Below, piece after piece: positions 33,765-38,223 of a stretch of DNA of 50,379 nucleotides. The stretch is from assembly GCA_025056115.1 (NCBI GenBank), contig JANWVM010000015.1:1-50379 (forward strand), given 5' to 3'. Numbering within the stretch: the stretch's first letter is position 1; the number at the start of each line of letters is the position of its first letter. The position numbers were made by a program, and so were the translations under genes. The notes under the pieces are model-generated. The model was not told the DNA's origin, ran no database searches, and saw nothing but the letters and a program-made list of their open reading frames with translations. Origin of the DNA: Gloeomargarita sp. SKYG116 (GTDB taxonomy: Bacteria; Cyanobacteriota; Cyanobacteriia; Gloeomargaritales; Gloeomargaritaceae).

Positions 33765-34771
33765 AGAAGCGGCGCTATTCCCATTGCCTTCTGCACTTGT
33801 GCCAACGTCGCCTGGGCAATCTGATGGGCCCGTTCCCGTCCCTCCCGTAGAACCTGGCGCAAGTAGTCCTGAGCGTTCATAAGTTCCGCGTATTTCGTTT
33901 GGATAGGTCGTAGATGCTCGATGATCACCTCCGCGAGCAGAGGCTTGAATTCTCCCCAGCCCATATCCTGCACTTCCGCCGCCACGGTCGCCTTGTCTTT
34001 GTCGCTCAACAACTGATACAGCGTCAGCAAATTATGACATTCCGGACGCTGCGGGTTGTCAAATTCCAGGCCGCGAATTGGGTCGGTTTTGCAGCGTTTA
34101 ATTTTTTTCTGAATCAGGTCGGGCGGGTCAGTCAGGTTGATGCGGCTCATGTCCGAAGGGTCGGATTTGGACATTTTACTGGTGCCGTCGGTCAAACTCA
34201 TCACCCGCGCGCCGGTTGTGGGAATGAGTGGCTGGGGCAGCTTCAGAATGGGGTTTTCGGGACTGGCAAACAGGTAGTTAAACCGTTGGGCAATATCCCG
34301 TGTGAGTTCTAAGTGTTGTTTCTGGTCTTCGCCCACCGGCACTAAATCGGCCTGGTAGAGCAAAATATCGGCAGCCATCAGCACAGGATAATCCAGCAGG
34401 CCCACCCCCACATCTTCCCCCTGTTTGAGTGCTTTTTCCTTGAACTGGATCATGCGCTCCAACCAATTCAGGGGGGTGATGCAGTTGAGTAGCCAGGTCA
34501 ATTGACTGTGGGCGGGTACGTGAGACTGGATAAAAATTACACTGTACTGGGGGTCCAACCCGCAGGCCAGATACAACGCCGCCACCGTGTAGGTATTTTG
34601 AGCCAACTCTGCTGGGTTGTAGGGGACGGTCATGGCGTGCAAATCGACCACGCAAAAGAAGTTTTCTCGTTCCTGCTGACCGGCGACCCAGTGGCGAATG
34701 GCCCCCAGGTAATTTCCCAGATGTAAATGACCGGTGGGTTGGACTCCCGACAGTACACGTGGACGGTGCAT
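33761..34771 (-). CDS. trpS: Tryptophanyl-tRNA synthetase
   Basis: This is a 336-residue class I synthetase that loads tRNA-Trp. The HIGH equivalent is HLHLGNYLGAI-type sequence (TGHLHLGNYLG, residues 12-22), and the KMSKS loop is in GTSKMSKSDPSDMSR near residue 198. Conserved TrpRS blocks include VDLHAMTVPYNP and VLMAADILLYQADLVPVGEDQKQHLELTRDIA. Length is normal. The stop overlaps the start of the MTHFR-like gene, so the two are in one transcript. It is divergent from the first bestrophin gene with a gap of 77 bases. Confidence 0.97.
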   Translation of the reverse strand: MHRPRVLSGVQPTGHLHLGNYLGAIRHWVAGQQERENFFCVVDLHAMTVPYNPAELAQNTYTVAALYLACGLDPQYSVIFIQSHVPAHSQLTWLLNCITPLNWLERMIQFKEKALKQGEDVGVGLLDYPVLMAADILLYQADLVPVGEDQKQHLELTRDIAQRFNYLFASPENPILKLPQPLIPTTGARVMSLTDGTSKMSKSDPSDMSRINLTDPPDLIQKKIKRCKTDPIRGLEFDNPQRPECHNLLTLYQLLSDKDKATVAAEVQDMGWGEFKPLLAEVIIEHLRPIQTKYAELMNAQDYLRQVLREGRERAHQIAQATLAQVQKAMGIAPLL

Positions 34772-34848
34772 GGGACGTGGCCCTAACTGGACTGGGATTT
34801 ATTGTACCGGCCAGGCGTAATAATGGAGAGAGACCAGGGAGAAGGCGA

Positions 34849-35757
34849 ATGTTTAGCACGCTGGGTGGACAACCGTGGTTCCGGGTGGCGTTGCAGATGC
34901 GCGGTTCAGTATTGCCACGGATAGCCCCGCGGGTGTTCCTGTTTATGGGTTACAGCGCTGTGGTGGTGTTTACGCGGCAAATCGGCTGGAAATTACCCAT
35001 CAGTATCTTAGGGGAAATTACATCTAACGTCGCCTATAACTTAGTGCTGGGGTTGCTGCTCGTGTTTCGCACCAACAGTTCCTATGACCGCTATTGGGAA
35101 GGTCGTAAAGCTTGGGGACAAATGATTATTGCCCTGCGTAATTTAGCTCGCACGATTCAAGTGAGTATTCCGGCTACAACAGAGACGGAATGGCAAGCGA
35201 AAAAACGGGCTTTGCAGTGGCTGATGGCGTTTCCGGTGGCGGTCAAGCTGCATTTGCGCCAAAACCCCAATAATCAGGAATTAACGGATTTCCTCACCCC
35301 TGCTGAACAAGCAGAACTGGCCGGTGTCTTTAATCGCCCAGTCTATATCACGCTTTGGTTGCAGGACTATTTGCAACGGCAGATGCGTCACCAGCGGCTG
35401 GACTCAAACCGGGCTTGGGAATTGGACGATTCCATCAACCAGTTAATTCAGGGTTTGGCGACCTGCGAGCGGATTATTCAAACGCCGGTGCCCGCAGCCT
35501 ATGTGATTTACTTGAAACAATTGATTTTGGTGTATTGCTTGGCGTTGCCGCTGGCGTTGAAACCGGAGTTGGGCTGGGCGGTTGTGGCGATTGTTGGCAT
35601 CGTGACATTTATTCTCATGGGGGTGGAGGAACTGGCCTGTGAGATTGAAAATCCCTTTGGTTTAGATGTCAATGACTTGCCGTTGGATGACCTCTGCCGC
35701 ATGGTGCATCGTAGTATTCAAATGATTGGCCAGTTCCATCCCAGCGATGATGAATAA
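34849..35757 (+). CDS. Bestrophin-family anion channel, copy 1
   Basis: The 302-residue protein is a bacterial bestrophin/UPF0187 channel with four hydrophobic helices (about residues 27-48, 60-80, 210-230 and 236-255) and the family core [31 protein letters not shown] with ARNLARTI. Bestrophins form pentameric anion channels; in algae, thylakoid bestrophin-like proteins are thought to carry bicarbonate to the lumen for CO2 concentration. A role here is inferred. ATG 34849 has GGAGAAGG just before it. Its 3' end overlaps the second bestrophin by about 11 bases, so the two are translationally coupled. Confidence 0.9.
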   Translation: MFSTLGGQPWFRVALQMRGSVLPRIAPRVFLFMGYSAVVVFTRQIGWKLPISILGEITSNVAYNLVLGLLLVFRTNSSYDRYWEGRKAWGQMIIALRNLARTIQVSIPATTETEWQAKKRALQWLMAFPVAVKLHLRQNPNNQELTDFLTPAEQAELAGVFNRPVYITLWLQDYLQRQMRHQRLDSNRAWELDDSINQLIQGLATCERIIQTPVPAAYVIYLKQLILVYCLALPLALKPELGWAVVAIVGIVTFILMGVEELACEIENPFGLDVNDLPLDDLCRMVHRSIQMIGQFHPSDDE

Positions 35758-36709
35758 AGACCCAACGACGGCATCAATGGTGGATATCTGGCAGTGGCTG
35801 CGTACTGTTTTCATCTGGCGAGGTTCCATTTTGTCCAAGATATTGCCGTTGCTTTTGTTGTTGGGGTTGTATGCCGCCGGTATGGTTTGGGTTTGGCAGC
35901 GCCATTTGCCATTACCGTTGGCATTTTTGGGGGAATTGACCAACAGTGTGGTCTATAACTTGGTGCTGGGGCTGTTACTGGTCTTTCGCACCAACAATTC
36001 CTACGACCGGTTGTGGGAAGGACGCAAAGCCTGGGGAGATGTGGTCGTGAATGTGCGCAACCTGGCTCGCACCATTCAGTTGTGTGTGCCGGTGACCACC
36101 GAACCGGAAAAGGCGCGGCGACAGGCTGTATTAACCATGTTGCCAGGGTTTGCTGTAGCCATGAAGTTGCATTTGCGGGATATTGCCGACAACCAGGACT
36201 TGGCGCCCTACTTTGCACCGCCGCAACTCCAGCAGTTGGCCCAGAGCCGCCACCGCCCCCTGCAAGTCCTGATCTGGATACAAGACTACCTGCAACAAGA
36301 ATTTCAACAGGGACGGATTGACACGGTGCGGCTTCTCGAGGTCAATCAGTTGCTCAATACCCTCATCCAGGGCCTGACGGCTTGTGAACGGATTCGCCAA
36401 ACCCCCTTGCCGCGCCCCTACGTGGTTTATTTACGGCGATTGATCCTGCTGTACTGCCTGAGCTTGCCGGTGGTGGTGGCCCCCAAAGTGGGTGTCTGGA
36501 CAGTGGCCGTCGCGTTGTTGGTGGGTTTCATCCTGTTGGGCATGGAAGAACTGGGCCGCCAGTTGGAAGACCCCTTCGGTCTCGACCCTGACGACCTGCC
36601 GCTGGACCAGATTTGCACTATGTTGACGGAGAATGTGCAGATGATTGCTGGAGATATGTCACCAGCGCCGCCAATCCCCACCGATAACTCGCCGCTCCAA
36701 ACCCGCTGA
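35747..36709 (+). CDS. Bestrophin-family anion channel, copy 2
   Basis: This second 320-residue bestrophin is a paralogue of the preceding gene, with the same core ([82 protein letters not shown]) and four matching helices. The sequence divergence between the copies is clear, so the duplication is not recent. ATG 35747 overlaps the upstream stop; ATG 35777 is an alternative with a head nearer to the family. The C-terminal Pro/Ser-rich tail (about 20 residues) is encoded opposite the end of aroQ, overlapping by 92 bases. Two different channels could form mixed or separate pentamers. Confidence 0.88.
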
Positions 36710-37076
36710 TTTGCCCAACCGCTACCGGCGCAATCCAGGAATGATGGCGGTAGGTCTCCCGAGCGTAGATGTTGCTCAGATGCACTTCCACCGTTGGCAA
36801 TCCGGTGGCGCGAATCGCATCGGCAATCGCCAGGCTAGTGTGGGTGTAGGCCCCCGGATTGATGAGCAAACCGTCAAATTTGCCTACTGCCTGCTGAATC
36901 CAGTCCACCAGCACGCCCTCGTGATTTGATTGCTGGCATACGACCTCTACCCCTAACGCTTGGGCTTGGGAGTGCAGTTGCTGATTGATTGAGTCTAAGG
37001 TCTGTACCCCGTAAACGTTCGGCTCGCGCTGCCCCAGCAGATTTAAATTAGGGCCATGGAGAACGAGGATACGCAC
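36618..37076 (-). CDS. aroQ: 3-Dehydroquinate dehydratase, type II
   Basis: The 152-residue enzyme removes water from 3-dehydroquinate in the shikimate pathway. The signature [17 protein letters not shown] (residues 7-23) holds the catalytic Tyr 22 on the mobile loop; [16 protein letters not shown] supplies the Asn and the trapping residues; [17 protein letters not shown] has the catalytic His. The GTG start at 37076 is directly next to the stop of the small upstream frame. The final ~10 residues ([10 protein letters not shown]) lie beyond the usual end and are antisense to the bestrophin tail. Confidence 0.95.
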
Positions 37077-37190
37077 CTAGCGCCGGTCATCCACGGGAAC
37101 TGGCACAGGTTCAGGCTCGGGCTGAGGCCCCAACAGCATATCTAGCAGCCGACGTAACCACTCTCTCAGCTTAGCGAGGATGCTCTCCAT
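37077..37190 (-). CDS. 37-residue miniprotein upstream of aroQ
   Basis: An open frame from ATG 37190 to TAG at 37079-37077; the aroQ GTG follows with no base between. The product starts with an amphipathic, basic helix (MESILAKLREWLRRLLDML) and then a Pro/Glu/Val repeat (PQPEPEPVPVPV) and a short charged end. It has no signal and is too short for a membrane span, but the helix could lie on a membrane surface or bind a partner. The tight joint with aroQ and the composition unlike random sequence support a real gene. I do not know a named family. Confidence 0.55.
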   Translation of the reverse strand: MESILAKLREWLRRLLDMLLGPQPEPEPVPVPVDDRR

Positions 37191-37254
37191 AGATTCTTTC
37201 CTCAATCAACAGCCCGAAGCACTGGTATTTTTCATTATAGTCAACGGCTCAGAA

Positions 37255-37271
37255 GGTGTCAGGACGTCACC
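37255..37271. promoter_or_regulatory. Inverted repeat upstream of the adenylate cyclase gene
   Basis: GGTGTC and GTCACC (37255-37260, 37266-37271) are arms of a near-perfect palindrome around AGGAC, 56 bases before the cyclase start. It looks a little like a cAMP-receptor site (TGTGA/TCACA) but the spacing is five and not six, and one base per arm differs. A TATGAT at 37287-37292 could be a -10. This is a weak candidate. Confidence 0.25.
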
Positions 37272-37326
37272 CCTAGTCCCTTGGGCTATGATATGGGGGG
37301 AAACTTGGAACCCATCCAATAGGGGC

Positions 37327-38223
37327 ATGGAAAACGAGGCCACTATCCTGTTTGCCGACATTAGTGGCAGTACCAAACTCTATGAGACGCTGGGGGATGA
37401 AGCGGCCCTGGTGCTGGTCAGCGACTGTCTGCAGCTGCTTTATCAAATTGGGAAAAAATATCAAGGACAATTGGTCAAAACCATCGGCGATGAAATCATG
37501 TTGCGGTTCCCTAACCCCTCGTTAGCGGCGCAAGCTGCCTTTGAGATGCAGGACCAGGCCACCCAGTTTTTCTACAAGCGCAAAGTTGTTTCCGGCCTCA
37601 AGGTGGGACTTAATCATGGGGTGGTCATTGAACAGAACGATGGCGACGTGTTTGGGGACGCTGTGAATGTGGCTGCCCGCATGGTGCAACTGGCCAAGCG
37701 AAACCAAATCCTGGCCCCAGCCGCCACCGTACAGCAACTGGACCCGTCCCTGGCCCTGCAAAAGCGGCTCGTGGACCGGACAACCGTGCGCGGCAAAAGC
37801 GAACCCATCGAAGTGTACGAAATTGTGGTTCACCCCTCGGATGCCACCATTGTCGGTGTCAGTGCGACTTCGATACCGCCCACGCCGGTGGTGGCCCGCC
37901 TGCGCGTACAGTTCCAAGACCAGGTGTACTACCTCGATGAACAGCATCACACGCTGAGCCTAGGCCGGGCGCCAGATAACGATTTAGTGATTCGCTTTGA
38001 CCAGGTCTCGCGGCAGCACGGTCGGATCGAGTGGCGACGGGGGAAGTTCGTACTCGTGGACCAAAGCGCCAATGGCACCTATATCCACTCCGCTGGTCAA
38101 GCCCCCATCTATGTTCGGCGCGAAGAGTACACCTTAACCCATGAGGGCACGATTCACCCGGGCAGTCCCCAGGTGGAAGGTATTCACTACCAATGCTTAG
38201 TCGGTCCTCCTGTTCAGGCCTGA
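37327..38223 (+). CDS. Class III adenylate cyclase with C-terminal FHA domain
   Basis: A 298-residue soluble protein. The cyclase domain (residues 1-185) has all catalytic parts: metal-binding Asp 11 (FADISGST) and Asp 55 (KTIGDE), adenine-selecting Lys 51 and Asp 111 (FGDAVN), and transition-state Asn 114 and Arg 118 (NVAAR). So it should make cAMP. An FHA domain follows (about 210-270: LGRAPDNDLVI, VSRQHGRIEW, DQSANGTYI), which binds phosphothreonine peptides. The layout recalls Synechocystis Cya1 (Slr1991), reported to respond to inorganic carbon; that role here is by similarity. ATG 37327 has AGGGGC upstream. Its 3' end overlaps fpg by ten bases. Confidence 0.93.
   Translation: MENEATILFADISGSTKLYETLGDEAALVLVSDCLQLLYQIGKKYQGQLVKTIGDEIMLRFPNPSLAAQAAFEMQDQATQFFYKRKVVSGLKVGLNHGVVIEQNDGDVFGDAVNVAARMVQLAKRNQILAPAATVQQLDPSLALQKRLVDRTTVRGKSEPIEVYEIVVHPSDATIVGVSATSIPPTPVVARLRVQFQDQVYYLDEQHHTLSLGRAPDNDLVIRFDQVSRQHGRIEWRRGKFVLVDQSANGTYIHSAGQAPIYVRREEYTLTHEGTIHPGSPQVEGIHYQCLVGPPVQA

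Follow-up and report, generated by a model that had tools for sequence, protein, structure and literature searches.

A conserved cyanobacterial miniprotein with an amphipathic helix, encoded upstream of aroQ

In the 50,379-nt stretch of Gloeomargarita sp. SKYG116 DNA analyzed here (hereafter designated the window), a frame of 37 codons ends directly at the start of aroQ, and this frame is almost certainly a protein gene. The encoded miniprotein belongs to a real, conserved cyanobacterial family that carries no name in the family libraries and the literature searched. With somewhat more confidence than doubt, we favor the reading that it is an unnamed amphipathic-helix adaptor microprotein, a role that we infer, and that its ORF also feeds the translation of aroQ. 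The family marks a gap in a well-studied phylum, being found in 307 of 388 genomes while its window member has neither a Pfam match nor an NCBIfam match near the cut-off, and it could easily be tested in a model strain. If the two ORFs are indeed coupled, aroQ expression may depend on the upstream ORF, which bears on the engineering of aromatic products in cyanobacteria.

The miniprotein gene and its junction with aroQ

The minus-strand frame 37190..37077 specifies MESILAKLREWLRRLLDMLLGPQPEPEPVPVPVDDRR followed by a stop, with the ATG at 37190..37188 and the TAG at 37079..37077 (Table 1). The preliminary description gave these outer coordinates correctly, leaving the strand unstated, but set the stop one base before the aroQ GTG and called the two frames fused end to end; in fact, the GTG begins at 37076, 0 nt separate it from the TAG, and the kept stop codon leaves two separate adjacent ORFs, so that a fusion is rejected. 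The ATG is kept in 6/6 same-genus genomes (congeners), and a start at the in-frame TTG (37205) would lengthen the peptide by five residues. The aroQ frame (152 codons) matches PF01220 with an E value of 8.4e-60. Its 3' end, with the stop at 36618, shares about 92 nt (36618–36709) with the 3' end of a convergent plus-strand ORF (35726..36709). The plus strand at 34759–36709 holds tandem ORFs of 332 and 327 residues with overlapping ends, which we take to be paralogous bestrophin-type proteins, and the divergent plus-strand gene at 37328–38223 presumably encodes a class III nucleotide cyclase with a C-terminal FHA-like domain.

Upstream of the miniprotein, the promoter-like site is weak on its own because one such site was found against 0.5 expected in shuffles; its TATAAT occurs in 6/6 congeners, in a comparison confined to that box. 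The scanned region showed no terminator-like site. A single transcript probably carries both ORFs, and the miniprotein is likely the first gene of an operon with aroQ. The short leader that separates TATAAT from the miniprotein is possibly a genus-specific regulatory element; in the best 80 of 114 named loci, the last 80 nt before the miniprotein start contained TCGGGC in 0/80. No RNA family was matched up to an E value of 1 in an Rfam search of 36500–37600, and a known RNA family is thus rejected.

Table 1 Features on the minus strand around the junction of the miniprotein and aroQ
Feature	Position	Strand	Evidence
Promoter-like CTGACA-17-TATAAT	37234..37262	–	11/12 consensus matches; upstream of the miniprotein
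Short leader with TCGGGCTGT between TATAAT and the miniprotein	37206..37233	–	Kept in 6/6 congeners
Purine-rich GAGGAAAG, Shine-Dalgarno-like	37196..37203	–	5 nt ahead of the ATG, read from the sequence
Miniprotein ORF, 37 residues + TAG	37077..37190	–	Frame reading, class-wide conservation, purifying selection, AlphaFold
aroQ, type II 3-dehydroquinate dehydratase, GTG start	36618..37076	–	PF01220, TIGR01088

Selection, fold and distribution of the family

The codon-level check proposed in the preliminary description found the frame intact in all six congeners and a strong synonymous excess, with a pN/pS ratio of 0.118 (pooled pS, 0.635; pN, 0.075), whereas the shifted frames gave ratios of 1.13 and 20.4 and contained 1–3 stops in every sequence. 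The corresponding ratio for aroQ was 0.171, and the residues of the miniprotein are held tighter than those of aroQ in the genus tested. Across the class, a helix block of 22 codons gave a ratio of 0.208, against 1.03 and 2.21 when the frame was shifted; it was read from 77 of the best 80 of 114 loci, with 74 distinct sequences. By these tests, selection acts on the protein, beyond the DNA alone. The impression of a design unlike random sequence was therefore borne out by amino-acid conservation over the class together with the synonymous excess, and a chance ORF is rejected on the same two grounds.

In the AlphaFold model (28-row alignment), residues 2–20 form a helix (pLDDT, about 90) and residues 21–37 an extended Pro-rich tail (about 75), with a mean pLDDT of 82.8 and a low pTM of 0.36. 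The helix, described at the outset as amphipathic and basic, is amphipathic, though modestly so in the window peptide, the moment of which was equalled by 529 of 20,000 shuffles (14, 6, and 10 for three relatives); with a net charge of about +1, the word basic was an overstatement. Leu residues at positions 5, 8, 12, 15, and 19, as read from the sequence, show heptad-like spacing, so that contact with a membrane face and contact in a coiled coil or groove are both possible. Codon selection, class-wide conservation, the Shine-Dalgarno signal, and the fold prediction together uphold the original view of a small protein that joins an amphipathic helix to a Pro/Glu/Val tail. The family as a whole (about 37–49 residues) comprises an amphipathic N-terminal helix, a Gly-Pro break, and an extended PE/PIPV tail of the pattern PE.E..P.PV, usually followed by a short Arg-rich end; its consensus over 28 rows is MDYIEKVLEKLKEWARKLIEALLGPExQPEPELIPIPVxDRxRRR.

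Assignment of the window peptide to any named family of Pfam, NCBIfam, or the PDB is rejected: Pfam gave no match up to an E value of 1, the PDB sequence search reached at best 0.4, and the single NCBIfam resemblance, to PA1414 (NF041729), scored 14.7 bits, below the membership cut-off of 28 bits, which nothing in its own genome exceeded. No paper treating this gene was recognized among the titles listed by a literature search that covered few subscription papers.

Frames upstream of aroQ in relatives, the search for which had been suggested in the preliminary description, encoded the peptide with its stop at most 250 nt from aroQ in 27 of 30 loci (the window genome and 29 relatives; 30 of the 35 initial matches yielded loci); two of the remaining three lay 403 and 605 nt upstream of aroQ and one elsewhere. 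From the 27 peptides, 25 members were aligned into a profile (A1), with start codons chosen by hand and with one of two identical peptides and a Gloeobacter-like peptide left out. This profile matched 307 of the 388 class genomes and 140 of 160 genera; aroQ was found in 372 of the 388. The 81 class genomes with no match include every genome of family f2 (small genomes, Cyanobiaceae-like by inference; the names given to families f2, f14, and f23 are provisional), and none of the 307 belongs to it; 11 of the 20 non-matching genomes listed are f2. The miniprotein is accordingly dispensable in the non-matching class genomes, f2 included. In six f2 genomes (G008, G032, G059, G070, G118, and G138), nothing scored better than an E value of 0.3. 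In two f2 genomes, the stretch immediately before aroQ showed no diverged copy; tRNA-Thr and tRNA-Tyr genes occupy it on the opposite strand.

A phylum-wide draw gave matches at an E value of 0.01 or better in 78 of 194 genomes, one of them outside the class (9e-4). In that out-of-class match (L210, genome G406), the frame has a similar PVPVPV/Arg tail and ends in PVPVPVPVRDRSR; it has no in-frame ATG, and no aroQ was recognized within 3.1 kb. This borderline match could represent a distant relative.

Gene neighborhood and translation of aroQ

Among the matches listed, 186 places of the miniprotein and 170 of aroQ overlap in 103 genomes, and in 97 of these the miniprotein lies 0–605 nt upstream of aroQ (median, 51; distances between profile matches, not ORF ends). 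A separate scan of named loci, including Leptolyngbya, Nostoc, Arthrospira, Planktothrix, Picosynechococcus, and others, found aroQ downstream on the same strand with a gap of 18–300 nt in 80/80 of the best 80 of 114 confirmed loci; counts on these 80 loci are biased to typical members because the single peptide pattern used favors them.

The six unlinked genomes of the 103 are all of family f23. In eight of nine f23 genomes examined, the miniprotein follows cinA, with no aroQ seen within 1.5 kb; the ninth has it after a DnaJ-like ORF. The order cinA-miniprotein-aroQ was found in five genomes of families f14, f30, and f33, the members of which score weakest. CinA and SmpB were confirmed with NCBIfam on fragments of three ORFs only, other neighbors being named by eye. 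Neither cinA nor aroQ lies within 1.5 kb of the miniprotein in one genome (G061). Another (G218, L204) has two copies, one beside cinA and the other with no cinA within 1.8 kb, and in genome G289 (L192) a DnaJ-like ORF is followed by the miniprotein, then by an ORF of unrecognized type and one that is SmpB-like, all of these names being given by eye. The simplest history would be an ancestral cinA-miniprotein-aroQ string that was later broken on either side, the miniprotein surviving both ways. Such survival is not what a leader peptide serving aroQ alone would do, and the retention of the miniprotein beside cinA with no aroQ close by makes a function specific to AroQ improbable.

A Shine-Dalgarno pattern (AAGGA or GGAG) occurs within 20 nt before the miniprotein start in 77 of the best 80 of 114 loci, against 5.6 expected from shuffles; the exact string GAGGAAAG in the window would fail this pattern. 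Before the assigned aroQ start, the pattern was found in 6 of 56 loci (5.4 expected). These starts (34 TTG, 16 GTG, and 6 ATG), each chosen by a nearest-start rule and available for 56 of the same best 80 loci, may be wrong. Because the assignment is crude, the pattern was also counted anywhere between the two genes, where it occurred in 17 of 60 loci against 12.0 expected, slightly above chance (the aroQ motif being located in 64 of the best 80, 60 of them with a sufficiently short gap). Across the window and the six congeners, stop and start meet as TAG|GTG or, in two congeners, overlap as TAGTG. Given no clear Shine-Dalgarno enrichment before aroQ, its translation is probably coupled to the miniprotein ORF, a likely arrangement that we hold with fair confidence from the junctions and motif counts, although the lack of such a signal may be normal for cyanobacterial genes.

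Thus, the suggestion of a leader peptide for aroQ, made in the preliminary description, survives in part: coupling is likely, yet the peptide shows protein-level conservation and, in one family, remains beside cinA with no nearby aroQ. A classical attenuator is unlikely because there is no run of aromatic (Trp, Phe, or Tyr) codons; the window peptide has one Trp and no Phe or Tyr (the consensus, one Trp and one Tyr). A pure leader, in which only the act of translation mattered by delivering ribosomes to aroQ, would fit the abutting and overlapping junctions, the lack of a clear excess of Shine-Dalgarno signals before aroQ with its 50 of 56 assigned TTG or GTG starts, and the promoter-like site before the miniprotein with no terminator-like site in the scanned region. 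We nevertheless consider it unlikely, since the amino acids are under tighter constraint than those of aroQ, the family persists by cinA without a nearby aroQ, and the distance to aroQ reaches 605 nt among the matches listed.

In the adaptor reading, which we hold with moderate confidence, the miniprotein would be a small adaptor with its helix on a membrane surface or in the hydrophobic groove of a partner, and the conserved P-x-P-V tail would dock a second partner; ribosomes ending the miniprotein would begin again at aroQ, for which no clear Shine-Dalgarno sequence is apparent. A wider proposal, which we regard as a long shot, is that of an ancient regulatory microprotein, ancestrally placed between cinA and aroQ, that would serve as a CIII/SpoVM-like competitive helix or as a membrane adaptor on a core cyanobacterial machine (e.g., FtsH), its ORF doubling as a ribosome feeder for the shikimate enzyme.

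Comparison with known systems

The free amphipathic helix of about 20–24 residues resembles that of phage lambda CIII (PF02061, phrog_550), and an inhibitor or substrate of an FtsH-type protease, in which such a helix would compete for the protease as in CIII or SpoVM, was weighed as an alternative. To our knowledge, lambda CIII has neither the PE/PIPV tail nor the Arg end. CIII is the family resembled by most members in both Pfam (Lambda_CIII; 5/25; best E value, 0.011) and the PHROGs (3/25; 0.015), and it was matched by 0/10 pattern-preserving scrambles, a control too small to decide, as the real rate predicts only about 2/10 and the scrambles were compared with Pfam. With tens of thousands of families in play, all of these scores are non-significant: no member among the 25 matched a CIII profile of Pfam or the PHROGs at an E value of at most 0.001, and the window member gave no match. 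CIII is a phage gene, and nothing ties the locus to FtsH. A 24-residue amphipathic region of CIII is sufficient for activity, according to the accessible part of the source (PMC1838920). Together with the missing tail, the weak scores make an FtsH-type role quite improbable.

AtpTheta (atpT/Norf1), an inhibitor of the cyanobacterial ATP synthase, is in kind the closest known microprotein of cyanobacteria; it is likewise small, amphipathic, and cyanobacteria-specific, and at 48 residues it is of similar size (PMC9241938, in the portion available). Norf1 lacked BLAST matches in Gloeobacteria and marine picocyanobacteria in the accessible text of PMC5126843, absences that resemble the distribution of the miniprotein. 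That the two are identical is, however, very improbable. The C-terminus VNSTEE-stop, obtained by reading the norf1 probe primer in the sense direction (from the available text of PMC5126843), occurs in 0/25 A1 members and 0/80 of the best 80 of 114 loci; atpT has its own transcription unit with a 101-nt 3'UTR and a predicted terminator at its end, as far as the accessible sources describe it, whereas the miniprotein heads aroQ; and likely atpT homologues are reported from all available cyanobacterial genomes (the later paper, PMC9241938, in its accessible part), unlike the miniprotein with its 307 of 388. This distinction draws on the published description and the primer reading; the 24-base norf1 oligonucleotide, used to seek the Synechocystis sequence, gave 0 matches.

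The PA1414 family (NF041729; model length, 43) is resembled by 11/25 members (best E value, 1.4e-4), and PA1414 acts as the small RNA SicX in the available portion of PMC10247376; a functional RNA (a small RNA or riboswitch) that merely happens to hold a frame can nevertheless practically be dismissed, given the strong synonymous excess, the empty Rfam search, and a resemblance that is at least partly due to tail composition because 2/10 scrambles match too (at 0.07 and 0.15). No function was derived from the PA1414 or the CIII resemblance.

Finally, leader ORFs that act by reinitiation are short and stand immediately before a structural gene, as does the miniprotein before aroQ; the accessible text of Korolev 2016 (PMC4833913) reports no distance peak for such ORFs in cyanobacteria. 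Unlike them, the miniprotein shows conservation at the protein level and is retained in places with no aroQ close by.
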